A DNA stretch of 64,000 nucleotides, from NCBI GenBank assembly GCA_963920705.1, contig OY987228.1, positions 21,274,565 to 21,338,564 on the forward strand. Direction: 5' to 3'. Of this stretch, positions 3,356 through 63,498 are shown in pieces (positions within the stretch are counted from its first letter, which is position 1; each line of letters begins with the position of its first letter). The stretch comes from Odiellus spinosus (taxonomy: Eukaryota > Arthropoda > Arachnida > Opiliones > Phalangiidae). The notes beneath the pieces are model-generated. The model ran no database searches and was not told the DNA's origin. It saw nothing but the letters and a program-made list of their open reading frames with translations. The position numbers and the translations under genes were made by a program.

Positions 3356-3416
3356 TATACAGGGTGAAAAATATTTGACCAAAACATTGTCCAACGTACA
3401 GTATTGTGGGTTGTAT

Positions 3417-3753
3417 CAGAAGCCGATGAAACCCTCCTTTGAAGTCTACTACTCCAATGTTCCATATAGCGCTACTCTGTGTATGGGTAAAATTCCCAAT
3501 TTTACGAGTTAGAAGGGGTCCTACTTCATCCCCCCTGTCTACGGAAAATTGGAAATTCTCTCTCTCCACAAACGATGACGTTTTTTGGACGAACTCCGAG
3601 GCTGCTAGAGATATTCGCTCGACGAGCTCCCGCTCCGAAAACATCTATCGTTAGGAGGCGTACGAATCGCGCCTTTCGAGAATAACCCATACAGAGAGGG
3701 ATAGACAAGACCCGGGAGTAATAGACTTCAAAGGAGGGTTTCATCGGCTTCTG
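3417..3753 (+). mobile_element. Family A MITE copy A1 (337 bp)
   Basis: A non-autonomous inverted-repeat element with termini CAGAAGCCGATGAAACC and its complement. The inverted arms extend imperfectly for about 75-80 bp, to the word CCTCTCTGTATGGGT on both sides. A perfect 7-bp target-site duplication, GTTGTAT, lies at 3410-3416 and 3754-3760. It belongs to subgroup 1, with CTCCAATG at the left, GTTAGAAGGGG inside and GAGAATAACCC at the right. Short open frames of 70-97 codons occur on both strands in many copies, but they run through the inverted repeats and I do not consider them genes. Confidence 0.95.
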
Positions 3754-3760
3754 GTTGTAT

Positions 3761-4390
3761 TTAAAATAAGTGTTGGTCTGTCCACCCTGTACACTTTCTT
3801 CTTTATAATCCTCCACTGGACAAAGAAAACTCTTCGTTTTAATTAAAATTAAAATATATCGCGTTACTATTCCTTTAAAGAAATTGAATATCCTTTCTAA
3901 ACTGAAAGTAAGAAACTATCTAAGAATAATATAACGTAATATAATTATCTAATGAAAAATTAAAACTCTCATTCGCGAATAAAAACGCTTCATCGCGCGG
4001 CAGCGAAGGCTTTTAATATTATTTTCCAATTCACGACCTCATCCCTCCCCCCAACGAGTTAGTGGAAAATTTTACTGGCTAGATTAATGAATCTAATTAT
4101 TCGGAGGAACCCCCGTATAAAACTGCACTCCGTCGCGTCTCTTCGAATTGACACGAGTGATATTAATTAGCGAGGAAGCTCGCGAAAAATTAATTTTTCA
4201 CAATTTACTAAAAATCGAAAATCAAATCGATAAAAAAAAAAAATCTTTTTCTGACAAATATGCTTTTCACAATTTTTGAAACCCGGATGGTGACCGGACC
4301 TTCAATTTAGTCGAAGAATCCCATTATGCGTAATAGCTTTCAAATGAATTGCACTAAGCTCTATATATATCTATATTTTTTTAAATTTCA
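3761..4390. other. AT-rich sequence, nothing recognised
   Basis: Non-coding AT-rich sequence with a few CpG-containing words (around 3990 and 4130). I see no gene and no clear repeat. Confidence 0.5.
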
Positions 4391-5352
4391 AGTGAAGCTG
4401 ACACCATTTTTTATTTATTATTTTTTTTTTTTTTTGAATGTCGATGGATTATATTTTTAGTTTTATCATACTATTAAAACGTGATCTTCAAAATTCGTAT
4501 ACATTTGGGTTGATGTGTTCTTAAGAAACGTCAAAATGAAAATGACAAAAATATCCAGGTAAATATATTCGATATGACCCGAGGTATATAATAACCTCCT
4601 TCGGGGGGAAGTATGAAAGCCCCTATACTACCAATGCTAAAAATTACGAACAACAAGAGCTCGCTGCTGACTATCTAGGCCACTAGCTCGCGCTGGACTT
4701 CTCAATGTCGCTACTCTAGTAAATGGTCTTTGTATAAACAAGACGGCTCGATTTGTGTTTAGAACTTCCTGTCTCAGTAGGCAGGCTGTCTGTTAAAATG
4801 GAGTCGAAGGTTGACTTCAGCTCGCGAGTTCCGGAAGTGTGCGTAGGGAAAATTTAGTGAGGTTCAAAATGGTGTAACTATTTTTTGGGAGTAAAGCGGT
4901 GTGTCGATCCACCGCGATTTACGCCGGCCACTTTTTGTTCGTCGATTTTGCCTACCTTTCATACTTCCCCCCGAAGGGGGTTATTATATACCTCTGATAT
5001 GACGCAGTTTATTTCTAGTTTATTTTTACGCGAGTAGTTGACTTTCTGGGTTAAGTACTTTTACTAAAAAAAACCGCGCGAAAGCGACCTTATCAGTGGT
5101 GCCAGAACGCCCTAGAATCAACTATAGACACTACAATAACCACGTGACCATAGTGCCATGACGTAGTATTGCGGGAAATTTTAATTTTTAAAATTTTAAA
5201 AATGGCGATTATAAAATATATATTTTTACTGTCATGGTAATTTTATTCTATGACATACGTATATATATTTTAAATCGTTTTTTAACGATCTTTCCGAAAA
5301 TCATGCTCAATTCTCATTCGGAGTTCATTAAAATCCGTAACAACCTCACTTT
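4391..5352 (-). repeat. Family B MITE split by a family E insertion
   Basis: The family B termini AGTGAAGCTGACACC (left) and AACAACCTCACTTT (right) enclose about 540 bp of family B, interrupted by the family E element at 4579-4996. The right part has the conserved words CCACGTGACC, ATGACGTAGTATTGCGG and ATCTTTCCGAAAATCATGC. The nesting shows that family E moved after this family B copy was in place. Confidence 0.85.
4579..4996 (+). mobile_element. Family E MITE copy E1 (about 418 bp)
   Basis: The element has terminal inverted repeats: GAGGTATATAATAACC at the left and its complement, ending CTG, at the right. The inverted repeat continues through the CTTCGGGGGGAAGTATGAAAG region. A perfect 7-bp target-site duplication, ATATGAC, lies at 4572-4578 and 4997-5003. 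The left end reads CCGAGG where copy E2 has CAGAGG. It is nearly identical to E2 at 58101-58507, apart from about ten extra bases near 4918-4940 and a few substitutions. No coding capacity was recognised. Confidence 0.95.
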
Positions 5353-6604
5353 CAGTTTATATATTATCTAAAAACACGAAGATTCTTAATATTCAAATTA
5401 GCACGTCATTTTTTTCTCTCTCTCTCTCTCTCTTTTAAAACACACGTACGTACTCGCCATATGCCCAAGATTTTTGCCTTTTTCCTTATTCAAAGCGCGT
5501 CTGTTTTAAAATTTTAACTTCTTGGACTGTCTAGACTCATTTTTTCTCCCTTAAACTTAAAACATTTTTTTTTTCTTTCTTCTCGCGTGACTTTTCAACT
5601 TTTCTGGTTCAAAAATTTGAAATTTGGAATTATAATTTTAATTCTGAATAATTCCAAACCCCCGTAATAAAAATAAAACATTAAAATTATTGAAATCTTT
5701 CCACCTTCTTTTATTTTTGAAAAACCGACAAAAAGTTTTAATTTAGTTGATTTTAAAATTATAAACACACGTGACTCGATATAACCCTGGCTTTTTACGC
5801 CGAAATATTGTATAAACAAGTCAAGCTTTAATATATACATAGGTTTATATTGATTTAGTTTTAGGAAAACCTTTTATAACCATTTTTACGTTTTAAAATT
5901 AAGCCTTGGCTAGAATTAAAAAAAAATTGTAAGTTCAATATTTGTTTTTCAAAAAGGGATAAACCTTGTATATTTAAACCGAGCGCCAAGTTAGATATCG
6001 TGCCAGGTATTAGTGGGCAGAACTTTTTCAAATATTAAAGAGCAAGTATATATAAAATTACTTAAGACATTTAGGTAAATTAAGTTAATAGTTAGGCCTA
6101 ATCAGGACTGACTTATAGGCCTTTGTTTCTGGCTAAGCTAATTATCGTAGATTCGTTAGTTAATTAATAAACAAGCTTGGATAAACTTAATTGGTTAAAC
6201 ATTTTAGCACTAGTTCTCTTATTTATTTTTGATGTAAATTAAATATTTATAGTTATTACTTAACTTGTAAGACATGCTCTTTATAATAATTTTAAAATCT
6301 CCCTTTCGTTAAAATCAAAACCCTTTAAATATTTATTAAAAAAAAAAGTGAATGACTCAATTTTGACTCTTATTAAATTATAATATTTTACTTAAACTAA
6401 AAGTGGGGGTATGCATTATTTAATCTTACGCACCCTATCCTTACATATATGGTAACGATTATAATTATTTAAAAAAATCGATTGTGTATGCATTAACCAG
6501 ATATTTTTTTTTGGTCGCGAATTATAAATTATAATATTAAGTTATTAAACTTTAATCGTTTAAATTTTACGATAATTTATAAATTGGGGAACAAATTATA
6601 GTTA
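5353..6604. other. AT-rich sequence with a CT microsatellite
   Basis: Non-coding AT-rich stretch. A (TC)n run lies at about 5415-5444. No exon or repeat family was recognised elsewhere in it. Confidence 0.5.
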
Positions 6605-7066
6605 AAGTTAGACTGTAAAGGACTTTTCATGAACTTTAAATCTAAATTGAATAGCATTTTCGGAAAGATCGTTAAAAATATGTCTTGGAAATAATTATCG
6701 CGACAGTAAAAATACGTTTTTTATAATTTTTGAAATTTTTAACATAAATTTCCCGCATTACTACGTCATCACTATGGTCGCGTGGCTATTGTAGAACCTA
6801 CAGTTCATTCCCGGGCCTTCGACCACGTGATAAGATCGCTTTCGCGCGGTCTTTTTCGTGAAAGTCCTACCTTTAATGTCAAAATTATATCGTTATTTAT
6901 AAACTAATTTATAAAAAAAATTATATATATTTGAAATATTAATTTTGAAGTTTATTACGTCACGCATTAACTCAGAGGTATAAAATTTTGAATATGACAT
7001 TTTAATTTTATAATTTAAAAATATAATTCATATCCATTCGAAAAAAATGGTGATAGCTTTACTTTA
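6605..7066 (+). repeat. Family B MITE, full-length copy
   Basis: It starts with AAAGTTAGACTGTAAAG and ends with ATGGTGATAGCTTTACTTT, both diverged family B termini. Internally it has TTTTCGGAAAGATCGTTAA, TTACTACGTCATCACTATGG, and the CGCGCGGTCTTTTTCGTGAAAG block. At about 460 bp it is close to full family length. Confidence 0.8.
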
Positions 7067-7492
7067 AGCTATATTAATATTCGAAGCTTTTATTTTACTC
7101 CCACGTAAATTTGAAAGTTCACTTTATTAGAAAGTAATCTTTAATTTTATTAAAATATTAATGACTATATTAGAATGGGTTGTATTCAGAAAAATTCACT
7201 TATGATAATTGAGGCTATAAATTTATCTATATTTTCCATTAATTTCAAAATGATATTGTGAAGGGGAAAAAAAAACGATAAGTCTTTCAAAGAAATAATT
7301 ATTAAAACTTCTTGAAAGAAGAAAAAATAAAATTAGAAATAGAACTATAGGCATATTAATTGGTTTCAGAGCTTGCGAGTACATTTAATCTGATTTAGAT
7401 TAATCGATATATTTTAATTTAATCAAAAAAATTAAACTTTGAGGAATATAGGTTCATCTTTAATATTATATTAAAATGTATAATAATATTGA

Positions 7493-8010
7493 AAATATTA
7501 TCATTTAAAGTATAAAATATATTGTATATTATCATTTAAAGTATAAAATATATTATAAATTATCATTTAAAGTATAAAATATATTATATATTATCATTTA
7601 AAGTATAAAATATATTGTATATTATCATTTAAAGTATAAAATATATTATATATTATCATTTAAAGTATAAAATATATTATATATTATCATTTAAAGTATA
7701 AAATATATTATATATTATCATTTAAAGTATAAAATATATTATATATTATCATTTAAAGTATAAAATATATTGTATATTATCATTTAAAGTATAAAATATA
7801 TTGTATATTATCATTTAAAGTATAAAATATATTATATATTATCATTTAAAGTATAAAATATATTATATATTATCATTTAAAGTATAAAATATATTGTATA
7901 TTATCATTTACAGTATAAAATATATTGTATATTATCATTTACAGTATAAAATATATTGTATATTATCATTTACAGTATAAAATATATTATATATTATCAT
8001 TTAAAGTATA
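7493..8010. repeat. 31-bp minisatellite, about 17 units
   Basis: A head-to-tail array with the unit TTATCATTTAAAGTATAAAA plus an 11-bp AT tail (31 bp in all). I count 17 occurrences of the TATCATTT(A/C)AAG core. Variants cluster: three consecutive units near the right end (about 7905-7975) carry CATTTACAG instead of CATTTAAAG, and the tail alternates between ATTATATA and ATTGTATA. The array is almost pure A+T. Confidence 0.97.
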
Positions 8011-9954
8011 ATATGATATATTTTATAGACTTAATTATATAATCATATAATATAAATTGCTTCTATAAACATTTTCTATTCATCGTATAATTTCAACAAT
8101 ATGAATCTGAACTCAAAACCATAATAATTGTAACTCAATATTGTATCAAAGCTGAATTCTATGACCTCTCAGGTGTATATCAATTCCAAGAGTATCTGCG
8201 GTGTCCCCCTACGATAACACTTTAAACTACGCGTAAACTTCTCAAGCTTAGGTAAAAATCCCTCCCTTCTTCGTTTTATCGTTAAATTATTATCTCGCAA
8301 TAACTTACCACCGTTTATAAAGCGATATATTTCTATTTTTATCGCCATTTACAACCCTGATTAGTACTACTAATAGTGGTATAGAATAAGTCTGTGGGTC
8401 GGTCACCATCGGTTCCGCTTTTTGCTCCTCGAGGGGTCCTCCTGACACACAAGTCGGCGACACATATATAAATAAAAAAATCTAACCTGTCCCCACAGAC
8501 AAGTGTATAAAAAAATGCTTTTAGTTACGGGAGAGATAGTACGAATAATACACCGCACTGTCTAGGGTGTTAAAAAAACGCCTAAAAAAGAGCGAAAGAG
8601 ACCCCTCACTCTGTCCCGGGGTCCCCTCAAAAACTTTTTTTTTTGGTAGTTTCAACGTAACCCCTGAGTAGTGCCTCTTGTGTGGCAGTTAAATAGCTTT
8701 CACCCCCTAGATCAGAGACCCTACGTTACGTGCCTTAAATGGCAAATTTTGATTTTACCCCCACTTAGGGTCTCTACCCTATAGTGTTAAAAAAAATATT
8801 TTTGATAGAGAGAGCGGGGAGATCAAGCTTTAGTGAGAGTAAAAAAACGTGAGGGGCCATTTTTTTCACCCAATTTTTTTGTTGTAAACCCTGGGATACA
8901 GGTGAGTGACAAAAAAGTCATTCGATTTACTATGAGAAGATCGAATTCTATAACACCATACCACCATCGAATAAAAAAAATATATAATATTATAATACTT
9001 ACATAAAAAAATATATAAAAAATTTAGACAACCTTATAATGCCGCTTTAAAGCACATGCGTTGAAATACAAATAAGTCTAAACTATCTCCCAGAGAAAAT
9101 AAATTCCTGAGATGCAAAAAAAAAACTTTTGCTGGGTATCATTTTTTTAACCATCGTTGGCTCACCAACAAATTTCTTATATTGTAGATTGAACTGGGTA
9201 AAAAATTCTTTTTTCAAGGTTATATCCATAATAGTGAGATGCCGCGTAATGACGTTAACACAAATCCGATTTAATTATAATTATACTTTTTAATTATCAC
9301 GATTTTAAATTAAATTTTTCAGTTTAACCGAGAAATTTGGAAGATAGTCCGACTCGCAAAAAGCAAATGCTACGAATGTTTGGGCCCAAAAATTCTCGTT
9401 TCAACCCTTTCCTAGGATAGAATGGATCAAAAATTTGGGGGTTAGAATTTTCAACTAGATCTTCTAGGGGGGTGGTTAAAAAGGTTTGCATCCAAAAAGC
9501 GGTTTTACTGGTGTAGGAAAATTCTCTTTCTTAATTTTTACCCTAGCTATAAGGGGTTAAAACTTGGAGAATATGTTTTTTTATATCCATCATGCTTGGC
9601 GTTATATAATACTAAAGTTCGAAGGGAGAGGGGTGGGGGATAAAAATGGTTCCTAGGATGAAGGGAAGGGGTTACGTTCGGGAAGAAAAGGGGTTTCCCA
9701 TATATGATGGATAAAAAATTTTCGCACGATATTACCGAAAGGGGTGAATATACTCTCTTATACCTATATTATATATCTTTCCCGAACGCGGTGGCTTACG
9801 CAGTGTTGCGTAAATTGAAGCTCACGAAACGGGGGAAGCCGAAAGAAAGTGAAGGGGATGAAAATTGCCAGATACCAGGCTAAGGGTAAAGACGATGCAA
9901 CCAAGGGTTAAAGGGAGCCTGAAAAGATAATTTAAAAAAATTACAATTTAGGTA
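8011..9954. other. Non-coding sequence, no gene recognised
   Basis: Mixed-composition non-coding sequence with several runs of C and G (for example near 8600 and 9630). Around 8360-8375 (TAGTGGTATAGAAT) and 8940-8965 there is a weak inverted similarity that could mark ends of an old repeat. No coding exon was recognised. Confidence 0.4.
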
Positions 9955-21235: not shown

Positions 21236-21329
21236 ATATATTTTGCTTATTTAATAATTAATATTTCATATTTTTATTTGTTTATTTATTTACGATATTT
21301 AATTATTTAGGTTTATTTATTTATGGTAT

Positions 21330-21985
21330 TTAATTATTTATTTGACTTAATTATTTATTTGGTTAATTATTTATTTGGTTAATTATTTATTTGGTTAATT
21401 ATTTATTTGGTTAATTATTTATTTGGTTAATTATTTATTTAGTTAATTATTTATTTAGTTAATTATTTATTTATTTAGTTAATTATTTATTTATTTAGTT
21501 AATTATTTATTTAGTTAATTATTTATTTATTTAGTTAATTATTTATTTATTTAGTTAATTATTTATTTATTTAGTTAATTATTTTTTATTTAGTTAATTA
21601 TTTTTTATTTAGTTAATTATTTTTTATTTAGTTAATTATTTTTTTATTTAGTTAATTATTTGTTTATTTAGTTAATTATTTGTTTATTTAGTTAATTATT
21701 TGTTTATTTAGTTAATTATTTGTTTATTTAGTTAATTATTTGTTTATTTAGTTAATTATTTTTTTATTTAGTTAATTATTTTTTTATTTAGTTAATTATT
21801 TTTTTATTTAGTTAATTATTTTTTTATTTAGTTAATTATTTTTTTATTTAGTTAATTATTTTTTTATTTAGTTAATTATTTTTTTATTTAGTTAATTATT
21901 TGTTTATTTAGTTAATTATTTGTTTATTTAGTTAATTATTTGTTTATTTAGTTAATTATTTGTTTATTTAGTTAATTATTTATTT
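21330..21985. repeat. 16-20 bp tandem array with block-wise variants
   Basis: About 33 head-to-tail units built on GTTAATTATTT plus a variable T/A tail. Unit types occur in blocks: 16-bp units with TATTTG, then 16- and 20-bp units with TATTTA, then 19-20 bp units with TTTTTATTTA, then five units with TGTTTATTTA, seven with TTTTTATTTA, and four again with TGTTTATTTA. The last 16 or so units keep an exact 20-bp period. Block homogeneity indicates repeated local expansion. Confidence 0.97.
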
Positions 21986-21989
21986 ATTC

Positions 21990-24900
21990 ATTAATTTTGT
22001 TTAATTACGGTTTTAAATTATTTGAATTAAATAACCGGATATACTAAAAAAAGTAAGGGTTGTCGAACCCTGTCTAAAAGCTGGGCACCTGTCATCTCCT
22101 AAATAGCAGCTTTGCCATGAACACCGATGCGCTACGGTTGCAACACTTCTACAGGCGCCCATTGAAAATACATTGAAAACGTTCTCTTATATCCCCAGTT
22201 TTAAAACTTATTAAAATCGTACGAACCGATAATTATCGTTAAATAGAATGTACCTTAACAGTATTTTTAGAGGTTTCGATAAAATCGCTATTTCAAATCA
22301 AGGCTTTATCGTAATTAACTTAGGTGTGAAAAATAGGGGATAAAAAAATATTACGTTAACGTCGTCTCCTCTCTGTAATTCGCTAAATGAGTTGCCCCCC
22401 CCCCCCCTTACCTTCCACACCCTCTTTTATTAAAAATAAGAATCTTTGGAAATGGTTATCACTGCCACACGGTATAACCCCCGACTTTATATCCGTTTGG
22501 CTACGCCCAAAGCTAAAAAGAGCCTAAAGAGGAACGAATAACCGCCTTCATCTCCTTCTTCCGCAATTACTGGCTCGGACCGAGAGAGGAACCAAGTAGG
22601 GGGGGGTATCGCCAAAGAGTATTAATATTGGAGTCGAAATAAAGGAGTGGTTTTACGTTAATACGTTTAATGTAGATTTACTGACGCGATATCGTGTTAA
22701 ACAAAGGGAAGACGGCTATATATAAGGTATATAAAGATATATGGGACAAATCTTTTGCGAATAGGGCGCATGCGCCAGGGAAATGTGTTTCTGATTAGCT
22801 TTGTCGTGAAGGAAATATTTGTCCAGACTAAGTTATACCCTTACTATTCCCATTTAAATTAATTATATCAACAGTATCCAATAGAAAGCGTTATTTAATA
22901 AACACCCTTGGACATCTATGGCTCCTTTTAATTTCATTATGATCAGACTTTGAAAAAGGTTATGAATGAGAACATTACCTCGAACCTTTCACGCTTGAAA
23001 ATAAAAATCATCTTATTTCGACTCCCTCGTTAATCCTCCTTGGAATTAACGGTGGGAGGAGATGGCCACGCGAGCTATAACATTCCAGCTAGCCCTTATC
23101 CTTCATTGAAAACCTTCATTCCGCACCTAGACGTATAGCAAAAAGAGTGTTATTCGTGAGACCGAGAGTGGTGCTGGCCTTATTTTTGAGAAACAAGGGG
23201 AGGCCGCGGGGAGTAAGAAGGAGAGAGAGAGAGAGAAGTGTTTTTCCGCTTGCCCCTAACGAGAAAAGAAGATGGGCCGAAATTAATATAAAAGATCAAT
23301 AACGTCGGACGGGCTTGGCCCTGTTTTTGCTTTTTCTTTCATTAGCCTGGGCAACCGCCCTAGCTCCCTTCAGCCACCTTCTCGATACAACTACCCCCTT
23401 CCCCTTCGCTCGCCCTCTCACCCCCCATCCCCCTTCCATCCCCACAAACGCCCGTCGGTTCCTCGCTTATAGAAAAACTAATTAGAAGAGGAATATATGT
23501 AAGAGTTTTACGAGGCTAGCTAGGCTTAATCGCGTTACCGACGATACCGACTCTGAAGCTAGCTAGATAGCTTACCGCTAGGGTTAATCTAGTATCTATA
23601 GCCGTATTAGTATCTTGTAGATATATGCGTGTACCAATCTGACAGAAAATTACTATCAATGTATGAACCAAATTTTAATTACGGATTGAACAATAATTTC
23701 CATTGGAAATAGTATTTTTCCTCGATAATGTACGTCCATTCGAAGAATGTAACTCGATATGTAATATCTAGAGACTCGGTTACCCCCGCTAGCTTTCCTT
23801 TCCTCCCTTAGGCCGTTTTTCGCATCGTTGTTTTAGATTGGACGTTAAAGATACGAAGCACTTTTTTGCATTTTTTTTTCTTTCCTTTCCGTTATTTAGG
23901 CTTAGGATATTCTCTACCGTAACAGCGCGTAGTTTAGGGTTAATTCGTTCTTATAATCTTAGCTTCACAGCCACGCGCAATCTATCCCCTCTACCCTTTA
24001 TCCTTTTCCCCCCTAAACGCGTGAACCCGTTAGTTCGCTTTTGTTTATAGGCCCGGCTATTTTATATATACGTTACTTCGCTTTTATAACCTTTAATACA
24101 AGAACTAGGTATACCGGGATCGTTACTCGTTTTGAGGAAAAAGAGAGCGTAGCGTATGCGCGGAAAGCGGCTAATTCTAAAAGAAGAGACTTTGCCTAAC
24201 TATAGCTAAAAAAAAAGTTAATTTATTTTGAAAACTCAGTGGCGTTAAAAGGGCCGGTAAATACGTTGTCTTTAGCCCTCCGTTAGATTTGTTGGAAAAA
24301 GGTTCGAGCGTGGGTTGTACGAGGGTACGTAGGGTTTTTGAAAATGGATGGTATAGGGATGAAGATGCGTCGGCTGAGAGAGGAAGGGGGTTAAAGTAGA
24401 AGCCATTTTCCGCGTCCTTTCTCCTTATCCCCTGGGAGAGATCGGCTCTTTTAGACGCTTCCAGCGCTAACACGGCGGAGGAGAAGGCCCTAGTTGATGC
24501 CAGAGTGAGAGAGAGAGAGAAAAAAAATAGATAAAAATTTATCTGACTCTTTAAAAATTTTCCTAGCTTCATCTAATTAGCGAAGCTGGCAGACTGATCT
24601 CTCTAATAATGTTAGTTTGGGAAAACGAGGGAAAAGAAAAGAAAAAAATTAGGGAGAACCTGACTAAAAGAGAAGGGATGGGGAAGAGAAGGCGGGATGG
24701 TGATCGCTTTTCCTATCTCTAATTTTCCCGCTCATTAAAACCTGTTTTTTTTTTTATTTTTATTCATTCTCGCTTTTTATATTAATCTCATCTCCCTCGA
24801 CGCTGTCCCGGGATACGCGTTGTATCTATCTTATACGAGGAAGATAAGTTTCTTCTTTTAAACCCGATAGAAAAGCGCTTTCGAAAAGGTTATACTCTCT

Positions 24901-32541: not shown

Positions 32542-32545
32542 TTAA

Positions 32546-32918: not shown

Positions 32919-32924
32919 TTTAAT

Positions 32925-33652: not shown

Positions 33653-33659
33653 GTCAAAC

Positions 33660-33996
33660 CAGAAGCCGATGAAATCCTCCTTTGAAGTCTATTACTCCCG
33701 GGTCTTGTCAACCCCTCTCTGTATGGGTTAGTTTCAAAAATCGCGATTCGTACGCCTCCTAACGGTTGATATTTTCGGAGCGGGAGTTCGTTGAGCGAAT
33801 ATCTCTAGCAGCCTCGGAGTTCGTCAAAAAAACGTCGTCGTTTGTGGAGAGAGAGAATTTACAATTTTCCATAGACAGGGGGTATGAAGTAGGACCCCTC
33901 CGATCTCGTAAAACTGTGAATTTTACCCATACTGAGAGGAGCCCTATAAGGAACATTAGAGTAGTAGACTTCAAAGGAGGGTTTCATTTACTTCTG
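33660..33996 (-). mobile_element. Family A MITE copy A2 (337 bp)
   Basis: Termini CAGAAGCCGATGAAATCC and TTTCATTTACTTCTG, with a perfect 7-bp target-site duplication GTCAAAC at 33653-33659 and 33997-34003. It is in reverse orientation relative to A1. Subgroup 2: GATCGGAGGGG inside (seen as CCCCTCCGATC), CTCTAATG, and GAAACTAACCC. Confidence 0.95.
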
Positions 33997-34003
33997 GTCA
34001 AAC

Positions 34004-40267: not shown

Positions 40268-40543
40268 TTAAAACAGGTGTAAAATTTGTTATAATTATTC
40301 ATAAAAGATGGTTACAGTCTTACTTTAATTTATAAAGAAAACAACTTTTTTTTATCGAATGGCAATGCTATGAGGTCATCAAATAAGAAAAATTCTTAAA
40401 TTAGAAAATAGATTTTGGTGAAACATCGGGGAATTTTATGGAAATTAAAAAAATGCCTAATTTATCATAATTGACCTTATATCAGCTTTAAGTTAATTGC
40501 AAAATTATCTGGGTCTAACCAAATATTCCTTATTTGGTTTTAC

Positions 40544-40880
40544 CAGAAGTAGATGAAACCCTCCTTTGAAGTCTACTACTCTAATGTTCGATATAACGCT
40601 CCTCTCTGTATGGGTAAAATTCCCAATTTTACGAGATCGGAGGGGTCCTACTTCATCCCCCCTGTCTACGGAAAATTGGAAATTCTCTCTCTCCACAAAC
40701 GACGACGTTTTTTGGACGAACTCCAAGGTTGCTAGAGATATTCGCTTGACGAACTCCCGCTCCGTAAACATCTACCGTTAGGAGGCGTACGAATCGCGCC
40801 TTTTGAGAATAACCCATACAGAGAGGGGTAGACAAGACCAGGGAGTAATAGACTTCAAAGGAGGATTTCATCGGCTTCTG
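40544..40880 (+). mobile_element. Family A MITE copy A3 (337 bp, mosaic)
   Basis: Termini CAGAAGTAGATGAAACC and TTTCATCGGCTTCTG, with target-site duplication GTTTTAC at 40537-40543 and 40881-40887. The left and middle are subgroup 2 (CTCTAATG, GATCGGAGGGG). The right arm is subgroup 1 (GAGAATAACCC), so this copy looks recombinant. Confidence 0.95.
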
Positions 40881-40889
40881 GTTTTACAT

Positions 40890-42746: not shown

Positions 42747-43083
42747 CAGAAGCCGATGAAACCCTCCTTTGAAGTCTACTACTCTAATGTTCCTTATAGG
42801 GCTCCTCTCTGTATGGGTAAAATTCACAGTTTTACGAGATCGGAGGGGACCTACTTCATACCCCCTGTCTACGGAAAATTGGAAATTCTCTCTCTCCACA
42901 AACGACGACGTTTTTTTGACGAACTCCAAGGCTACTAGAGATATTCGCTCGACGAACTCCCGCTCCGAAAATATCTACCGTTAGGAGGCGTACGAATCGC
43001 GCTTTTTGAAACTAACCCATACAGAGAGGGGTAGACAAGACCCGGGAGTAACAGACTTCAAAGGAGGGTTTCATCGGCTTCTG
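42747..43083 (+). mobile_element. Family A MITE copy A4 (337 bp, no TSD)
   Basis: Intact termini CAGAAGCCGATGAAACC...GGCTTCTG, but the flanks differ (AGAATGG at left, CTAAAAT at right). It is the only one of ten family A copies without a 7-bp duplication, which suggests recombination or a rearrangement at this site. Subgroup 2 throughout. Confidence 0.93.
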
Positions 43084-43310: not shown

Positions 43311-43808
43311 TATTATTGAATGTTGTGAAATTTAGATTCACGTGATTGGACATTTTCTTCTTTAAATGAATTGAAAATATTGTCAAGTCGAAAAGATAAA
43401 ACACATATAGGCAAAAGTATGGGAACTTACTGCTTAATATATAAGAGATATTTTTAAATTAATATCTCTACCAGTAAATTAAATTAAAAAATAATTAAAA
43501 ATTATAAATTTAAAATCCATAAAACTATACCGTTTTTTATCTTGGTGACAGCAGTGTTTGATGATATTTATATAATACACGAAGAAAACTCAATATTTAT
43601 TGTGTGGTATTACAGGAAATAAACGTTTTTGCCGTTACAAGAATTTTTAAGGTCTAAAAAAAAAATAATAAAGGTTAATAAAAATCGGAAAAAATATATT
43701 TATTTTTTCAAAATTGTGACTTAGTTAAAAAATTTTAATTTTTAATTGATTTTTAATTGATGAGGTGTATTATTTGAAACAAAGTATTAATTACCAAGTC
43801 AGTCAGAG

Positions 43809-44027
43809 CATGGGCCAAGAAACGATAAATCCAGGGCATGACTCTAGCGTCTATTAAAAGACCGTTTTTTGGGGTCAAGTTTGTACAGTCAAAGCTATGG
43901 CGTTTTGGGAACAAAGTGACGTCATATGACGTCACAAGCTGTACGAAGGCTGTTTGTTTGGCCGACTGAGAATTTTATTCCCTCAAATAGAGAGTCACGT
44001 CCTAGATTTATCGTTTCTTGGCCCATG
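43809..44027. mobile_element. Family L MITE (219 bp, CATG ends, 7-bp TSD)
   Basis: Terminal inverted repeats CATGGGCCAAGAAACGATAA, continuing as ATC with a mismatch after 23 bp, are present at both ends. A perfect 7-bp duplication GTCAGAG lies at 43802-43808 and 44028-44034. The centre holds a 20-bp perfect palindrome at 43916-43935. Ends starting CATG plus a GT..A target resemble the P-element superfamily (P elements start CATGATG and duplicate 8 bp, ProtoP-type elements 7 bp). The superfamily assignment is inference. Confidence 0.9.
43916..43935. promoter_or_regulatory. Perfect palindrome with two CRE consensus sites
   Basis: The 20-bp palindrome GTGACGTCATATGACGTCAC contains two complete TGACGTCA sites (43917-43924 and 43927-43934), the binding consensus of CREB/ATF bZIP factors. 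It is inside the family L element and about 750 bp upstream of the 44689 NAB exon. Any regulatory effect is inference. Confidence 0.45.
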
Positions 44028-44054
44028 GTCAGAGTATACAGTTACAAATAAAAC

Positions 44055-44391
44055 CAGAAGCCGATGAAACCCTCCTTTGAAGTCTATTACTCCCGGGTCT
44101 TGTCTACCCCTCTTTGTATGGGTTATTCTCAAAAGGCGCGATCCGTACGCCTCCTAACGGTAGATGTTTTCGGAGCGGGAGCTCGTCGAGCGAATATCTC
44201 TAGCAGCCTCGGAGTTCGTCCAAAAAACGTCGTCGTTTGTGGAGAGAGAGAATTTCCAATTTTCCGTAGACAGGGGGAATGAAGTAGGACCCCTTATAAC
44301 TCGTAAAATTGGGAATTTTACCCATACAGAGAGGAGCGCTATATGGAACATTGGAGTAGTAGACTTCAAAGGAGGGTTTCATCGGATTCTG
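44055..44391 (-). mobile_element. Family A MITE copy A5 (337 bp)
   Basis: Termini CAGAAGCCGATGAAACC and CATCGGATTCTG (one substitution), with target-site duplication ATAAAAC at 44048-44054 and 44392-44398. Subgroup 1. It starts 20 bp after the family L duplication and about 300 bp before the NAB 44689 exon. Confidence 0.95.
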
Positions 44392-44688
44392 ATAAAACTG
44401 GTCAAAATTTCCGACTGATTTGTGATAAAATACTTTTAATTTTAAATGAAGCGTTTTTAACTGAAAATAAAAGTCAATGACGATATATTACATAATATAT
44501 TGAGTTAAAATCACTTACAATGTTGTATATAAACGACACACATCGAATGGCTACTTTTGACGAAAGATTACCATTCGATTAAGTGCGTTTATTCCAACAT
44601 TTTATATATTTATTTGATTTAAAAATAATAATTATTAAAGTTAACTATTAGATATTAATTTTTGACGCTTCCCCCTTGCTGTCTATAG

Positions 44689-45589: not shown

Positions 45590-45906
45590 CAAGAATCCAT
45601 TCAAGTTCCATAAAAATATGGGAGCATAGCTTTAGCCTCTGGTACCATCCTCCCAAACTTTGTAACAAAAGTTCGTCCGCAATTTTCGCAACATTTGTAC
45701 GCTTAGATCTTTTTTCGGTCGGCTCCATTTTTATTACCCAAAAGATTATGTCAAGGTCGTTAGTGGCGCGGGTTAATAATATAATGTCAGGAGCGATTTA
45801 CTTGAAAAATCGATTCGAAGCGGACGAACTTTTGCTACAAAGTTTGGGAGGATGGTTATTGAATCGCGGCCCTCCCATATTCTTATGGAACCTGAATGGA
45901 TTCTTG
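45590..45906 (+). mobile_element. Family G MITE copy G1 (317 bp)
   Basis: Termini CAAGAATCCATTCAAGTTCC and the complement ending GAATGGATTCTTG. The inverted arms extend about 85 bp, to ACCATCCTCCCAAACTTTGT and the matching GGGAGGATGG. The flanks (CAATATA, TTAAAAT) are not duplicates, so the target-site duplication has been lost. It lies 95 bp after the NAB exon donor, in opposite orientation to G2. Confidence 0.9.
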
Positions 45907-48597: not shown

Positions 48598-48604
48598 ATC
48601 CTAC

Positions 48605-48940
48605 CAGAAGCAGATGAAACCCTCCTTTGAAGTCTATTACTCCCGGGTCTTGTCTACCCCTCTCTGTATGTGTTAGTTTCAAAAAGCGCGATTCGTACGC
48701 CTCCTAACGGTAGATATTTTCGGAGGAGGAGTTCGTCGAGCGAATATATCTAGCAGCCTTGGAGTTCGTCCAAAAACGTCATCGTTTGTGGAGAGAGAGA
48801 ATTTCCAATTTTCCGTAGACAGGGGGGATGAAGTAGGACCCCTTCTAACTCGTAAAATTGGGAATTTTACCCATACAGAGAGGAGCGCTATATGGAACAT
48901 TGGAGTAGTAGACTTCAAAGGAGGGTTTCATCGGCTTCTG
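48605..48940 (-). mobile_element. Family A MITE copy A6 (336 bp, mosaic)
   Basis: Termini CAGAAGCAGATGAAACC and TTTCATCGGCTTCTG, with target-site duplication ATCCTAC at 48598-48604 and 48941-48947. The element's left and middle (read on the minus strand) are subgroup 1 (CTCCAATG, GTTAGAAGGGG). Its right arm is subgroup 2 (GAAACTAAC). This is the reciprocal of A3. Confidence 0.95.
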
Positions 48941-49093
48941 ATCCTACCTAGTTTATTTTTGAATTTCGTCTAATTTTATAGATCATATATGATCATAAGT
49001 ATATATGACAAAAGTATATAAAAGTTAATTTAAATTTTTTTTTTTTTTTGTTTTGATTACCGAGGTGCAGACCGCTTTCGTTTCATAGTAATT

Positions 49094-49228
49094 AAAGTGA
49101 GCCTGTCATGAACTCCAAATGGAAATTGAGTATAATTTTCGGAAAGATCGTTAAAAAACGATTTAAAATATATATACATATGTCATAGACAAAATTACCG
49201 GGACAGTAAAAATACATATTTTATTTTT
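49094..49228 (+). repeat. Family B MITE fragment next to copy A7
   Basis: It starts AAAGTGAGCCTGTCATGAAC and runs through TTTTCGGAAAGATCGTTAA and ATATGTCATAGAC to ACATATTTT. It then stops close to the family A insertion A7. Confidence 0.75.
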
Positions 49229-49235
49229 GTACACC

Positions 49236-49564
49236 CAGAAGCCGATGAAACCCTCCTTTGAAGTCTACTACTCTAATGTTCCTCCTCTCTGTATGGGTAA
49301 AATTCCCAATTTTACGAGATCGGAGGGGTCCTACTTCATACCCCTTGTCTACGGAAAATTGGAAATTCTCTTTCTCCACATATGACGACGTTTTTTTGAC
49401 GAACTCCAAGGCTGCTAGAGATATTCGCTCGACGAACTCCCGCTCCGAAAATATCTATCGTTAGGAGGCGTACCAATCGCGCTTTTTGAAACTAACCCAT
49501 ACAGAGAGGGGATAAACAAGACCCGGGAGTAATAGACTTCAAAGGAAGGTTTCATCGGCTTCTG
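49236..49564 (+). mobile_element. Family A MITE copy A7 (329 bp)
   Basis: Termini CAGAAGCCGATGAAACC...CGGCTTCTG with target-site duplication GTACACC at 49229-49235 and 49565-49571. Subgroup 2. About eight bases are missing in the left arm, where other copies have the TATAGCGCT region. Confidence 0.95.
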
Positions 49565-49995
49565 GTACACCTTATTTCGCGTGTTTCAGCCCTCTCGAAT
49601 CCAGCTAATTAATTATAGGAATGACTAATATACCACTGTGATTACCAAATCACTCTGAAAATGAATAGTAGACAAAGGCAGTAATATAACAACGCCTCGT
49701 GGATGGCTAGATAAAGAATAGAAAGACGGGGGGGCGTGGTTTTATTTAGTTCCTACTTTAAACAAAATTTGCCTTTAGAGGACGCTTATGGTACGCCAGA
49801 TTTAGTTAAACATATTTATCTGTTAATATAGTCGCACGTTGTTAATAGGCTTAGCTTCGATACATAATTCCAAACGTTTAAACTTATGGTTATGAAATTT
49901 TGCTTATGATAGGTATAGCTAGAAATTCAGGGGAAAATAATTTCCTCCTTTTCTTTTTCTTTGGATATTTTCTGAGCCGCGTAAGTTCTCGCGTG

Positions 49996-50837: not shown

Positions 50838-51406
50838 TTGTCACGAGTTCTAAATAGAATTAGGGTACCATTTTCGGAAATATTGTTAAAAAACGATTAA
50901 AAATATTTATCCATAGAAAAATTACCAAAACAGTAAAAAAAAATGGAATTCCTATGGATTATATGCCTATGAAAATATGAGTTTGATTCGTTAGAAATAA
51001 ACTTCAAAATAAAAATAACAAAAATATAGAGGGCAATTTTTTAAGACGCATGACGTAGTTTATTTCTTGGACTTCATAATTAACGATAATTTTCGTACGA
51101 AAGATTTGACTTTCTGAATTAAGTACTTTTACGAAAAAGACCGCGCGAAAGCTACCTTATCACTCGTGCTAGAACTCGCCATATTCATCTCTACAATAGT
51201 GAAATCACGTGACCATAGTGATGACGTATTTTTATTTAAAAGATATCGAAAATGGCGATTATAAAATATGTATTTTTACTGTCGCGATAATTTTGTTCTA
51301 TGAGATATGTATATATATTTTGAATCGTTTTTTTAACGATCTTTCCAAAAATTATACTCAATTTCCATTTGGATTTCATGAAAAATGAGTGACACCCACA
51401 CTTTAA
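50838..51406 (-). repeat. Family B MITE with inverted double ends
   Basis: The left part (50838-50990) carries family B right-end words in inverted orientation (TCACGAGTTC, TTTTCGGAAATATTGTT). The right part (51040-51406) is a normal reverse copy, with AGACCGCGCGAAAGC, ATCACGTGACCATAGTGATG, GCGATAATTTTGTTCTATG and GAGTGACACCCACACTTTAA. The composite is a large imperfect foldback. Confidence 0.7.
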
Positions 51407-52442: not shown

Positions 52443-52797
52443 AATCACGGAAAAGACTTATTTTTTGGTTCATACACACGCAACATTACTGCTCTTGACT
52501 ATTTTACACGCGACAATATAATTACATCATGATTAAATCCCGTGAAATTAAGCCTTTGTCATCGTCACTTAAAGTCAGTCACTAAACCAAAAAAACTCGC
52601 CGTCTGGCTTTGAGAATTTTTTCCCGTTACCCCCTTTCACGTTAGGCCTATAGTGTGCTGTTGCCTAGAATATTTTTTAACCCAGTCTCCATGATTTTAG
52701 CCACACCTTCCCTCATAGAGGGGGTTTAGCTACTATATTGAGTAGTGCCGGCTTTCTGTCTGTCTGTCCCACAAATTTTCTATTACACATATATTGA

Positions 52798-53134
52798 CAG
52801 AAGCCGATGAAACCCTCCTTTGAAGTCTACTACTCCAATGTTCCATGTCGCGCTCCTCTCTGTATGGGTAAAATTCCCAATTTTACGAGTTAGAAGGGGT
52901 CCTACTTCATCTCCCCTGTCTACGGAAAATTGGAAATTCTCTCTCTCCACAAACGACGACGTTTTTTTGAAGAACTCCAAGGCTGCTAGAGATATTCGCT
53001 CGACGAACTCCCCCTCCGAAAACATCTACCGTTAGGAGGCGTACGAATCGCGCCTTTTGAGAATAACCCATACAGAGAGGGGTAGACAAGACCCGGGAGT
53101 AATAGACTTCAAAGGAGGGTTTCATCGGCTTCTG
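52798..53134 (+). mobile_element. Family A MITE copy A8 (337 bp)
   Basis: Termini CAGAAGCCGATGAAACC...CGGCTTCTG with target-site duplication ATATTGA at 52791-52797 and 53135-53141. Subgroup 1 throughout. Confidence 0.95.
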
Positions 53135-53149
53135 ATATTGACTAGATTT

Positions 53150-53214: not shown

Positions 53215-55160
53215 AATGAACTTTAAAAACATTTTCATGAGGTGTGGCTAACTATGGGTTTGCCAATCTTGTTAATTTTGCTTTTTTCCAATCTTTAGCA
53301 CGGTAGAGGCTGAGTGTCTCCTTTTTTCCGTGCAGTGAACGTGGGGGGAAAGTAAATCTCTAGCGTTTGTTTTGTTTCTTTTTCTCTATCCACCTAAGGA
53401 TGAGTTTTTGCTCGGTCGCTATAGAGAATAGTCGAGTTCACATTTATTTTTGACGTAATCTCAAGGTCAGATAGATTTTGTGTAGGAATCTATGTCTGTA
53501 ATGGGTTTTCCTTCGCAAGAACCCGAAATTCTAACGTCGAACTCGCTTGACCTATTTTTTTGTTTTAAATAATTTCTCTCTATTGTTTGTTTTTGAATCG
53601 AATCAGAGAATTGGAATACATCTACTTCTCAGCGTAACACAATTTAACTTTCAAATAAAATCTAATTTAGAGAGAGGTACTGGATAAAATAGTTAAATTA
53701 ATTAAAATAAATAATTATACCAAGTTAAAGTTCGAAATTGAAGCTTAGTGTCGCTTTGAAGTCAAAACGACATGGAACTTGTAATTAAGAAGACTTAATT
53801 AAGAAGGAAAAACTCCCAGTTCTGATTTATGGCGAGTAACAGTACTATGACGTCATTAAATTGGTAAAATACGCCATTTATATCAAGTCTAGCTTTATAT
53901 ATTGGCAATTTTGAATGATTAGCTTACATTTGATAAACTGCATGTTGAACTAACCCTTTCCAAACTGTACCCGAAAGATATATAGTATACCTAAGCCCGT
54001 TTTTCTACCATTTTACCAAATTAATTGTAGTCTCAAAACAAGATCAAATGGTGATATTATTAATTTAAGTACATTATGGGAAAAACTAAAATACAATATA
54101 TATTTAGGGCGAGCAGTATATTATATTTATTCCGAAGTAAAACGGAGTCCCGGGAAAAAATTGTAATTCCATATATTGGGCCATTTTCTAAGTAATAAGC
54201 CTTAGTTTTATATGAAATAATCGATATGTATGTATATACGCATACCATAATATTATTCCCTCCCTCAGATCTTAGTTCTTTTATAGGAGAGCTAAGCTTT
54301 ATAACGTGGGTTGCAAAAAATCGAAAATAAGAAATAGCAAGTTGCTAAAGCTGAAAAAAAACCTTACAGACTATGTACGGTATAAAATAAGCTTGAAAAA
54401 TAAAATTTATTTCGTCTGGGTCTGAACTAGGCTCTACAACCCTTATATCTCTACCACGAATTGAAAAAAAATATATATATTAGTAACAACAAAAAATCCT
54501 AGACAAGGAAAGAAAAAGTTTTTTTCTCCGACTCTTCTGTAGGTTAGGAGAATTTTCTTTTTGTTATTTTTTTTTTTTATTTTTTTCTTATGTCTACAGC
54601 CACGCAACTACTCTATTTTATAACATACGTAAAAGAACGAGTACTTAAGAACTAAGAAGTTAGAGATACATTATACAAGAGCTTAAGGATAAAATCCACC
54701 TTCTAGTTTCGTACTCGTTGTTTCAAAGAACCATATGGTCAATTTCATCTTAGATCGGTAGCGAGTGATACGACTATGTTTCCTTTAAATCTATAAGAAA
54801 ATGAAACGGATGTAATGGGTAACCTATGTAGCTTTCTTCTCGCTATCAAATCAAGGTGAAATATTTTTTGCTTTATCCTCTGTGCCTCTATAGCGTTTAT
54901 ATCTTTTCTGAAGGCTGAACCCTGTTAGTTGTATCTAACTAAACAAAAACAAATTCAGCCTTCTCTCTATTTCCGGGTTTTCCATTTTCTAGTTGCGCAT
55001 CTATCCTTGTTATTTTTTTTTCTCATTTTTTTATTCCCCTTTTTTTCAACCCCCCCTTTATCTCTTTCTCACTCAAGGATCTTTCACCCTAGGCTTATTT
55101 TACATCCAACTAATTGGGGCAACTGTTGCCCTCACTAGTTGGTTCGTGTGAATTGATTTT
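53215..55160. other. Non-coding sequence, nothing recognised
   Basis: Mostly AT-rich. TGACGTCA, the CRE consensus, occurs once in CTATGACGTCATTAAA at about 53846, and a similar word lies at 60180. No exon was recognised. Confidence 0.45.
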
Positions 55161-55161
55161 A

Positions 55162-55660
55162 TATTGTGAGAAATTTTGAGAATTCAAAGATTTTAAATTG
55201 GGAGAAATTTTGAGATTTCAAAGATTTTAAATTGGGAGAAATTTTGAGATTTCAAAGATTTTAAATTGGGAGAAATTTTGAGACTTCAAAGATTTTAAAT
55301 TGGGAGAAATTTTGAGATTTCAAAGATTTTAAATTGGGAGAAATTTTGAGATTTCAAAGATTTTAAATTGGGAGAAATTTTGAGATTTCAAAGATTTTAA
55401 ATTGGGAGAAATTTTGAGAATTCAAAGATTTTAAATTGGGAGAAATTTTGAGAATTCAAAGATTTTAAATTGGGAGAAATTTTGAGATTTCAAAGATTTT
55501 AAATTGTGAGAAATTTTGAGATTTCAAAGATTTTAAATTGTGAGAAATTTTGAGATTTCTAAGATTTTAAATTGGGAGAAATTTTGAGATTTCAAAGATT
55601 TTAAATTCGGATAAATTTTGAGATTTCAAAGATTTTTTTCAAAGATATTTTTGGAAGAAA
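55162..55660. repeat. 34-bp minisatellite, about 14 units
   Basis: The unit is GGGAGAAATTTTGAGATTTC followed by AAAGATTTTAAATT (34 bp). The AGAAATTTTGAGA core occurs about 14 times at 34-bp spacing. Variants include GAATTC against GATTTC and TTGTGAG against TTGGGAG, and the last units decay. Confidence 0.96.
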
Positions 55661-56202
55661 TTGTGAGATTTCAAAGTCAATTTATCTCGTGTGAAAGGTC
55701 CTTCACATTATATAAAACAAAGTTCTTTGGGCGCCTACGTAAAGTATTTTTTGTCTACGTGCCTTTCTGTAATATAGCGGTATAGACCATGGTATAATGT
55801 TTTTACGCTTATATACTTTCCTATTCTACGCGGATATTTTCGGGGTGGGTTACATGGGGGGGGGGACGATATTTTATATTATAAAGTACGTCATAGATCT
55901 TTTTATTAGTATTTTTTGTTTAATCTAATGGGGAGAGAGAGAAAGAGAGAACTCATAACGACTGTTTTAATAATTTTGATTCGTTTCCATATACATAGAA
56001 AATATAAAATTATTTAATTTTTTTTATATATAGTTGTTATAAGGGATATAGTTTATAGTTCTATTGTTATTCCCTTGTATATAAAAAAGAAGAAGAATAA
56101 GAAAATGAAAAGGATTTAGAAATTCGAGACGGTGTTTTAGTTTAATGTGTTGCGAATACGTGGAATTTTCGATATTTTAATATTTTTGGACTCGGTTTTG
56201 TT
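55661..56202. other. Non-coding sequence, nothing recognised
   Basis: AT-rich, with a G run at 55855-55864 and a GA tract at 55933-55950. Confidence 0.45.
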
Positions 56203-56690
56203 GAGGCTGTCAGAGATCTTTCATGAACTCCGAATGGAAATTGAGTATCATTTTCGGAAAGATCGTTAAAAAACGATTCAAAAAATATATACATATGTCA
56301 TAGAACAAAATTACCATGACAGTAAAAATACATATTTTACAATCGCCATTTTCGAAAATTTTTAAAATTAAAATTCCCTGCATTAGTTCGTCATCACAAA
56401 AGTCACGTGGCTATTGTAGAGCCTACAGTTGATTCTCACGCGTTCTGGCACGTGATAAGGTCGCTTTCGCGCGGTCTTTTTCGTGAAAGAACTTAAACTA
56501 TCTTTCGTACGAAGAATATCGTTAATTACGTTCCGGAAAAACAATTACCCATACATTTTTTTGACATTTTCATTTTAAAGTATCTTAAAAACGGGTCAAC
56601 CCATAGGTATAAAAATATGAATATTATAAAAGTATAATAAAATTAAAAATATAATCCAGAGGCATTCGAATATTTTAGCTTTAATTATTA
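56203..56690 (+). repeat. Family B MITE, long copy
   Basis: It begins TGAGGCTGTCAGAGATCTTT and contains CGAATGGAAATTGAG, TTTTCGGAAAGATCGTTAA, ATTACCATGACAGTAAAAA, AAGTCACGTGGCTATTGTAG, CACGTGATAAGGTCGCTTTC and AATATAATCCAGAGGCATTC. The right terminus is diverged. It ends just before A9. Confidence 0.8.
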
Positions 56691-56716
56691 ACTTCTTTTG
56701 CATTGGTTTATCTAAC

Positions 56717-57055
56717 CAGAAGTAGATGAAACCCTCCTTTGAAGTCTACTACTCTAATGTTCGATATAGCGCTCCTCTCTGTATGAGTAAAATTCCCAAT
56801 TTTACGAGATCGGAGGGGTCCTACTTCATACCCCCTGTCTACGGAAAATTGGAAATTCTCTCTCTCCACAAACGACGACGTTTTTTTTTGACGAACTCCG
56901 AGGCTGCTAGAGATATTCGCTCGACGAACTCCCTCTCCGAAAATATCTACCGTTAGGAGGCGTACGAATCGCTCTTTTTGAAACTAACCCATACAGAGAG
57001 GGGTAGACAAGACCAGGGAGTAATAGACTTCAAAGGAGGGTTTCATTGGCTTCTG
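56717..57055 (+). mobile_element. Family A MITE copy A9 (339 bp)
   Basis: Termini CAGAAGTAGATGAAACC and TTTCATTGGCTTCTG, with target-site duplication ATCTAAC at 56710-56716 and 57056-57062. Subgroup 2, with two extra T in the ACGTTTTTTTTTGACG run. Confidence 0.95.
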
Positions 57056-57062
57056 ATCTAAC

Positions 57063-58093: not shown

Positions 58094-58100
58094 TATTTTA

Positions 58101-58507
58101 TCAGAGGTATATAATAACCTCCTTCGGGGGGAAGTATGAAAGCCCCTATACTACCAATGCTAAAAATCACGAACAACAAGAGCCCGCTGCTGACTATCTA
58201 GGCCACTAGCTCGCGCTGGACTTCTCAATGTCGCTACTCTAGTAAATGGTCTTTGTATAAACAAGACGGCTCGATTTGTGTTTGGAACTTCCTGTCTCGG
58301 GAGTCAGGCTGTCTGTTAAATTGGAGTCGAAGGTTGACTTCAGCTCGCGAGTTCCGGAAGTGTGCGTAGGGAAAATTTAGTGAGGTTCAAAATGGTGTAA
58401 CTATTTTTTGGGAGTAAAGCGGTGTGTCGATCCGTCGCGATCTTGTTGTTCGTCGATTTTGCCTACCTTTCATACTTCCCCCCGAAGGGGGTTATTATAT
58501 ACCTCTG
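58101..58507 (+). mobile_element. Family E MITE copy E2 (407 bp)
   Basis: Termini CAGAGGTATATAATAACC and the complement. A perfect 7-bp target-site duplication ATTTTAT lies at 58094-58100 and 58508-58514. Sequence and orientation are nearly the same as E1, 53 kb away. Confidence 0.96.
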
Positions 58508-58514
58508 ATTTTAT

Positions 58515-59917: not shown

Positions 59918-59921
59918 TTAA

Positions 59922-61403: not shown

Positions 61404-61427
61404 AAATAAAATGCCATACGGTAATAC

Positions 61428-61743
61428 CAAGAATTCATTCAGGTTCCATAAGAATATGGGAGGGCCGCGATTCAATTACCATCCTCCCAAACTTTGTAGC
61501 AAAAGTTCGTCTGCTTCGAATCGATTTTTCAAGTAAATCGCTCCTGACATCTATTATTAACCCGCGCCACTAACGACCTTGACATAATATTTTGGGTAAT
61601 AAAAATGGAGCCGACCGAAAAAAGATCTAAGCGTACAAATGTTGGTAAAATTGCAGACGAACTTTTGTTACAAAGTTTGGGAGGATGGTACCAGAGGCTA
61701 AAGCTATGCTCCCATATTCTTATGGAACCTGAATGGATTCTTG
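61428..61743 (-). mobile_element. Family G MITE copy G2 (316 bp)
   Basis: Termini CAAGAATTCATTCAGGTTCC and GAATGGATTCTTG, with arms of about 85 bp. A perfect 7-bp duplication GTAATAC lies at 61421-61427 and 61744-61750. It is in opposite orientation to G1. A short open frame (61330-61536) crosses the boundary with the upstream palindrome and is not a gene. Confidence 0.95.
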
Positions 61744-61750
61744 GTAATAC

Positions 61751-62403: not shown

Positions 62404-62407
62404 TTAA

Positions 62408-62694
62408 AGGGAGAATGAAAGGCCAAAACAACCTATTTTTAATCGATTAAGAATGCTAAAATAATGAGAAAAATAATAATATAACTCACCAAAAATATTT
62501 CGTTATTTTATAATTAATTTCCAAAGTTCCGATGCTAAGCCTAGGCTGCCTAGCTCGGTGAACTAGGCTAGCACGACCCGTATTTTTTTTTAATATTCGC
62601 GGCTGTTCTTGTCGCCAATCACGAGCGAGTACGCGTATTTTAAAAATACGCTTACTCGCTCGTGATTGGCGACTAGATCAGACGGGAATATTAA
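62408..62694. mobile_element. Family C foldback MITE, copy C3 (right arm truncated)
   Basis: It starts AGGGAGAATGAAAGGCC after TTAA (62404-62407). The left arm is complete and the central palindrome passes through GCGAGTACGCGTATTTTAAA. It stops around GGGAATATTA, where about 170 bp of the right arm is missing. Confidence 0.88.
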
Positions 62695-63145
62695 CCTAAT
62701 GGAAATATTATTTTATTAAAATAAATCCAAAAAAAAAATCTGTTCCACCTTTAGCTCGTAGTTTCCATTTAAATGTAATTTAAAATATTTAATCGTATAT
62801 ACCGTCTAGTTAAAGGTTAACTAATTAAGTTTTGCTCATTAAAGTTTAAAAGTTAATTATATAAATACTATTAAATTAAGGCACCAAACTTAAACTTTTA
62901 GCATTTTAAAATTCAAAATCTTTTATTGAAATTTAATTGCCCTACTTTGATAAAACTTATTTTAGTTTTAATTAGTTAAAAGTACTATTAACTAACAATA
63001 ATCTTTATGAAATACCAAATAATGACCTAGATGCAGAGTTATTCTAAACGTTTATCCTCGCATGTTTGATAACGATTTCTGAAAGTCTCAAATCAAGAAG
63101 AAACACTGAATTAATTGCCTATCAATTATATATTTTAATTTTATC
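62695..63145. other. AT-rich sequence, nothing recognised
   Basis: AT-rich sequence. CACCTTTAGCTCGTAGTTTCC at about 62739 resembles a reversed family D end. No gene was recognised. Confidence 0.4.
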
Positions 63146-63152
63146 ATATTAT

Positions 63153-63491
63153 CAGAAGCCGATGAAACCCTCCTTTGAAGTCTATTACTCCCGGGTCTTG
63201 TCAACCCCTCTCTGTATGGGTTAGTTTCAAAAAGCGCGATTCGTACGCCTCCTAACGGTAGATATTTTCGGAGCGGGAGCTCGTCGAGCGAATATCTCTA
63301 GCAGCCTTGGAGTTCGTCAAAAAAAACGTCGTCGTTTGTGGAGAGAGAGAATTTCCAATTTTCCGTAGACAGGGGGGTATGAAGTAGGACCCCTCCGATC
63401 TCGTAAAATTATGAATTTTACCCATACAGAGAGGAGCGCTATATGGAATATTAGAGTAGTAGACTTCAAAGGAGGGTTTCATCGGCTTCTG
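63153..63491 (-). mobile_element. Family A MITE copy A10 (339 bp)
   Basis: Termini CAGAAGCCGATGAAACC...CGGCTTCTG with target-site duplication ATATTAT at 63146-63152 and 63492-63498. Subgroup 2, reverse orientation. Confidence 0.95.
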
Positions 63492-63498
63492 ATATTAT

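Follow-up and report, generated by a model that had tools for sequence, protein, structure and literature searches.

Short inverted-repeat elements with 7-bp target duplications in Odiellus spinosus, probably recent non-autonomous families of a P-superfamily lineage

The described elements closest in duplication length and target core to those considered here are P-superfamily transposons that duplicate 7 bp of their target, and those in the literature consulted come from Drosophila. One of them is 1360, also called Hoppel or ProtoP. It duplicates 7 bp at the palindromic target GTTNAAC, while the P element duplicates 8 bp at GTCCGGAC and hobo, of the hAT superfamily, 8 bp at GTNCGNAC; the same source reports palindromic targets for 22 Drosophila transposable element families and, for the P group, a flank tendency ANAGT...ACTNT with A at position −6, counted from the duplication centre (PMC3276498). 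Galileo duplicates 7 bp, or 8 bp in three D. willistoni copies, at GTATTAC/GTANTAC (PMC4168063; PMC2775673), has a flank tendency AANGT...ACNTT, again with A at −6 (PMC4168063), and includes copies with non-matching 7-bp flanks, described as recombinants between copies (PMC3573991). Here we describe eight families of short elements in a 64,000-nucleotide stretch of the Odiellus spinosus genome (the window, G000:C4:21274565-21338564; genome of 443 Mb in 286 contigs) and in its right (196 kb) and left (49 kb) flanks, which together with the window make up 309 kb. From their sequence, they are probably recent, non-autonomous cut-and-paste families of a 7-bp P-superfamily lineage. Miniature inverted-repeat transposable elements (MITEs) of such kind, and 7-bp P-superfamily targets, are already known; eight families in 309 kb are notable.

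Located by BLAST inside the window, 15 copies are full-length (10 of family A, two of E, two of G, and one of L), and 13 of them have a perfect 7-bp target-site duplication. These are the 13 that a preliminary description of the window had listed, all present and exact; it had also counted 13 insertions, all of them real, to which two full-length copies without matching flanks must be added. For independence from that description's choice of ends, the window was scanned for any exact duplication of 4–12 bp next to an inverted repeat of 24 bp (five mismatches or fewer), the first two letters agreeing and the end letters left free. Twelve structures were found at 7 bp, all of them CA...TG, and CA-ended structures at other lengths came to one of 59 at 4 bp and none at 5, 6, or 8–12 bp. 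A random pair of 7-mers from the window matches with a probability of 0.000275; this, together with the CA ends of all 12 structures, shows that the 7-bp duplications are not chance.

When a scan of this kind, now allowing four mismatches or fewer, was run over the window and right flank (260 kb), 43 structures turned up at 7 bp. Of these, 38 are CA-ended; among the other five, one is a palindrome inside an E copy, two belong to a repeat array, and two to a large inverted repeat. With the inverted repeat shortened to 14 bp in a relaxed version, 32 of 35 structures were CA-ended, and in the left flank five of five. At the other lengths read in the 260 kb (5–12 bp), six structures have CA ends, three of them with 6 bp and three with 8 bp, and all six “duplications” are self-palindromic. 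The 4-bp class comprised 1738 structures, 1492 of them TT-ended, and the reading covered 5–12 bp. In that range, structures at lengths other than 7 bp were rejected as self-palindromic AT-rich sites, tandem arrays, pairings of one family A copy with another, or copies already counted but read out of register. The sole 9-bp structure of the left flank is a copy of family A whose ends were taken one base too far in.

A census of the 309 kb was seeded with nine queries, all with a 7-bp duplication by choice, drawn from the 38 CA-ended structures; a sixth M form, M6, came from the left flank. Partial BLAST matches were excluded (A 55, E 12, G 6, M5 6, M1 3, and two each for L, M3, and M4). This left 55 full-length copies of eight families, 46 with a perfect 7-bp duplication, against 0.95 matches on average when left and right flanks are paired at random; no duplication of 4–6 or 8–11 bp abuts the ends of any of the 55. 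Without the nine seeds, the proportion is 37/46; outside the window, it is 33/40. By family, the perfect duplications number 28/33 in A, 7/7 in E, 3/6 in G, 2/3 in M1, 2/2 in M3, and 1/1 in each of the single-copy L, M2, M4, and M5. CA is found at 54/55 of the 5′ ends and 52/55 of the 3′ ends; CA...TG termini had previously been ascribed to all ends, but inside the window itself one E copy (E1) has CC at its 5′ end. The prediction drawn from the window (7-bp duplications and CA ends) was tested in the flanks and held. Further away, 27 of 39 listed non-window copies of family A were examined, from a search that scored 40 of 1169 first-look candidates: 18 have a perfect 7-bp duplication, one has 8 bp, four match at six of the seven positions, and four at one to five. 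Because the query held the duplication GTTGTAT and thus biased the ranking, these copies were used for duplication length only and not for the motif. The earlier observation of 7-bp duplications is confirmed.

The target itself is symmetric beyond the duplication. Oriented along the element, T stands at −2 in 39 of the 46 perfect sites and at −6 in 34, while A stands at +2 in 38 and at +6 in 31 (binomial probabilities given the base composition, 2.6e-8 for T−6 and 7.9e-7 for A+6), and at −6 in eight; the 33 perfect sites outside the window repeat this with T−2 in 26, A+2 in 27, T−6 in 25, and A+6 in 23. Mirror-complementary positions in 39 sites average 3.0 of 8, compared with 2.17 at random sites, where none of 2000 draws exceeded 2.90. 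Taken with T−6/A+6, this symmetry means that the target palindrome extends past the duplication. It is a palindromic preference and not a rule: a purine opens the duplication in 32/46 sites, a pyrimidine closes it in 36/46, and the strict motif RTNNNAY occurs in 18/46. RTNNNAY had been put forward as the target from the 13 listed sites, for which the base counts (R1 13/13, T2 13/13, A6 11/13, Y7 11/13) are correct and keep the same totals in element orientation. Its T2/A6 core does recur outside the window, where 21 of the 33 sites read NTNNNAN (background 11%), but R1 falls to 19, Y7 to 25, and RTNNNAY to 8 (background 2.1%), and the unbroken R1 and T2 of the window overstate the rule.

The end sequences of the eight families are CAGAAGCCGATGAAACC, CAGAGGTATATAATAACC, CAAGAATCCATTCAGG, and CATGGGCCAAGAAACG, and, for the four further terminal families found in the flanks, CAAGAAGGATYAGAYAAGG (M1), CATAGAGACTTTTAATATAGGG (M2), CATGGATTAATCAACC (M3), and CAGAAATAGATGAACC (M4); M5 is an 822-bp form of M1. 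Apart from the forms of M1, the query sequences of the eight families have no mutual match at E 0.01. No mention of four of the end sequences was found in the literature searched, and three of the terminal inverted repeat (TIR) patterns had no match in viral contigs. At no more than 10% mismatch, in one copy each, near-perfect TIRs extend over 44 bp in A, 44 bp in E, 37 bp in G, and 37 bp in L. Family A has 33 full-length copies in the 309 kb, E has 7, G has 6, M1 has 3 (plus the 822-bp M5), M3 has 2, and L, M2, and M4 are each represented once. In being short (219–822 bp) and non-coding, with TIRs, target-site duplications, and many near-identical copies, they have the features of MITEs, their interiors having been searched for coding remains less than exhaustively. 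Divergence from the family majority has a median of 3.9% in A (n = 28), 1.3% in E (n = 6), and 0.9% in G (n = 5); such low values suggest fairly recent bursts.

We propose that these are MITEs of 0.2–0.8 kb which, having no transposase gene, would depend for their movement on one transposase, or a few related ones, acting in trans through 7-bp staggered cuts at the palindromic AT-rich target TnnRTnnnAYnnA. Such a transposase would recognize TIRs of about 37–44 bp starting with CA; its complex would grip the paired TIRs and join them to the target DNA with a 7-nt stagger, the T/A at ±2 and ±6 being read symmetrically. Its most likely place would be with 1360 and Galileo in the 7-bp branch of the P superfamily, and one kind of autonomous source for all families may lie, or may have lain, elsewhere in the genome. 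The earlier proposal of one transposase type with a symmetric target fares well as far as a single mechanistic class is concerned, since duplication length, ends, and target are common to eight families, four of them outside that earlier description; a single enzyme is a stronger claim, as several related ones would look alike.

The P-superfamily reading is favored because the 7-bp duplication and the GT/AC-like core match 1360 and Galileo, and because the TIRs are long. Seven base pairs is the only duplication length in the census and, but for one copy with 8 bp, that of the perfect duplications among the distant A copies, and the −2/+2 preference supplies the GT...AC palindromic core, though less than half of the sites conform to strict RTNNNAY. 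The likeness to 1360 lies in the duplication and the palindromic target; the difference lies in the flank, where the P group tends to A at −6 and these families to T. Galileo shares the 7-bp, rarely 8-bp, duplication, the palindromic GTANTAC target, and the occurrence of some copies with non-matching 7-bp flanks, and its short-TIR copies have been discussed as MITEs; its TIRs are otherwise much longer and internally repetitive, and its flank reads AANGT where TnnRT is found here. The P element starts with CA and has a GT...AC-type palindromic target, but duplicates 8 bp. Three observations weigh against the assignment. The A at −6 of the P group and of Galileo, a tendency and not a defining rule, is here replaced by T (with A at +6); no transposase was detected in Pfam among 28 open reading frames (ORFs; 20 from the window and eight from the flank), a weak test that covered part of the window only; and 9/55 copies have no perfect duplication. 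The P-like label of the preliminary description agrees with published 7-bp P targets and with the long TIRs while parting from them at −6, and it is membership in the superfamily that we infer, with somewhat more confidence than doubt. If a P transposase is what moves these families, MITEs would be shown to arise from the 7-bp branch in a further genome, where the copies are sufficiently young for testing target choice, and the extended T−6 motif would be a distinct variant of target recognition.

The main rival, which we consider rather unlikely, is that these are unusual MITEs of the hAT superfamily that duplicate 7 bp. The NTNNNAN core would fit, being shared with hobo and other hAT elements, and so would the termini, as hobo and other hAT elements usually start with CA. 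Family E, which starts CAGAG, also follows the hAT end rule YARNG, a rule that could not be confirmed in the literature and that the other seven of the eight families break. Families of hAT with 7-bp duplications are, moreover, implied by an example query in the Repbase paper. The usual 8-bp hAT duplication, however, is found in 0/55 copies of the 309 kb and in 1/27 of the distant A copies, and hAT TIRs, given as 5–27 bp (PMC3517528) or 10–25 bp (PMC3942097), are short beside the 37–44 bp measured here for A, E, G, and L (a single copy per family). The lone 8-bp structure with a non-repetitive TIR in the relaxed scan, with TAGAGGTGTGCGAG ends and the duplication GGATTTGT, looks like an ordinary hAT element and is unlike these families. 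Pfam identified no hAT transposase among the 28 ORFs, and no genome search aimed at hAT was made. The hAT-like element just mentioned is 404 bp long (L041:4728-5131) and sits between an F-box ORF (L041:4122-4727) and a WD-repeat ORF (L041:5219-6058), possibly as part of an intron within one gene.

Less probable still is a transposase lineage that falls outside the P and hAT groups as described, from an undescribed or poorly sampled superfamily, and that would make 7-bp cuts at the palindromic target TnnnTnnnAnnnA and cross-mobilize eight or more MITE families whose interiors are unrelated. T−6/A+6 matches none of the P-group motifs compared, and no coding copy was found among the ORFs tested in spite of eight families in 309 kb; on the other hand, duplication length, core, and TIRs all fit P well. 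Very improbable, in our judgment, is the idea that transposases of different superfamilies served the different families, and that length and ends agree by chance: the eight families do lack mutual matches, but they have duplication length, CA ends, and target core in common, and the full-length copies of the 309 kb show no second duplication length. Dada elements, with 6–7-bp duplications, no TIRs, and insertion into small RNA genes, were rejected on the long TIRs seen here and on the window, in which Rfam gave no match at gathering score and ARAGORN no tRNA. Tc1/mariner (2 bp), PIF/Harbinger (3 bp), piggyBac and Kolobok (4 bp), Transib (5 bp), Mutator (8–11 bp), and Merlin (8–9 bp) were set aside on their duplication lengths.

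Within the window (G+C 34.7%, CpG observed/expected 1.29), the family A copies with perfect duplications on the forward strand lie at 3410..3760 (element 3417-3753, GTTGTAT), 40537..40887 (40544-40880, GTTTTAC), 49229..49571 (49236-49564, GTACACC), 52791..53141 (52798-53134, ATATTGA), and 56710..57062 (56717-57055, ATCTAAC), and those on the reverse strand at 33653..34003 (33660-33996, GTCAAAC), 44048..44398 (44055-44391, ATAAAAC), 48598..48947 (48605-48940, ATCCTAC), and 63146..63498 (63153-63491, ATATTAT). Families E, G, and L add four forward-strand insertions: E1 at 4572..5003 (element 4579-4996, with ATATGAC at 4572-4578/4997-5003), the second E copy at 58095..58514 (58102-58507, ATTTTAT), G at 61421..61750 (61428-61743, GTAATAC), and L at 43802..44034 (43809-44027, GTCAGAG). 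The L copy adjoins an A copy, both lying within 43802-44398 with 13 bp between their duplications. The two copies absent from the preliminary description, A at 42747..43083 (forward strand) and G at 45590..45906 (reverse strand), have intact ends and unlike flanks and could mark recombination between copies, as in Galileo; copies without matching flanks may in general be recombinants of this sort, or inserts that changed later.

Other repeats share the window with these families. A second, more diverged repeat (TTTTTAACGATCTTTCCGAAAAT...) is found at 3214-3352, 5194-5360, 39175-39307, 49108-49224, 51249-51404, and 56202-56352, with 31 further BLAST matches, many of them partial, in the 309 kb. 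Another repeat, largely self-palindromic and with the arms GATGCTAAGCC...GGCTTAGCATC, has three copies (32542-32923, 39809-40271, and 62404-62694), and tandem arrays occupy 7463-8019 (31-bp unit), 21281-21996 (20 bp), and 55155-55636 (34 bp).

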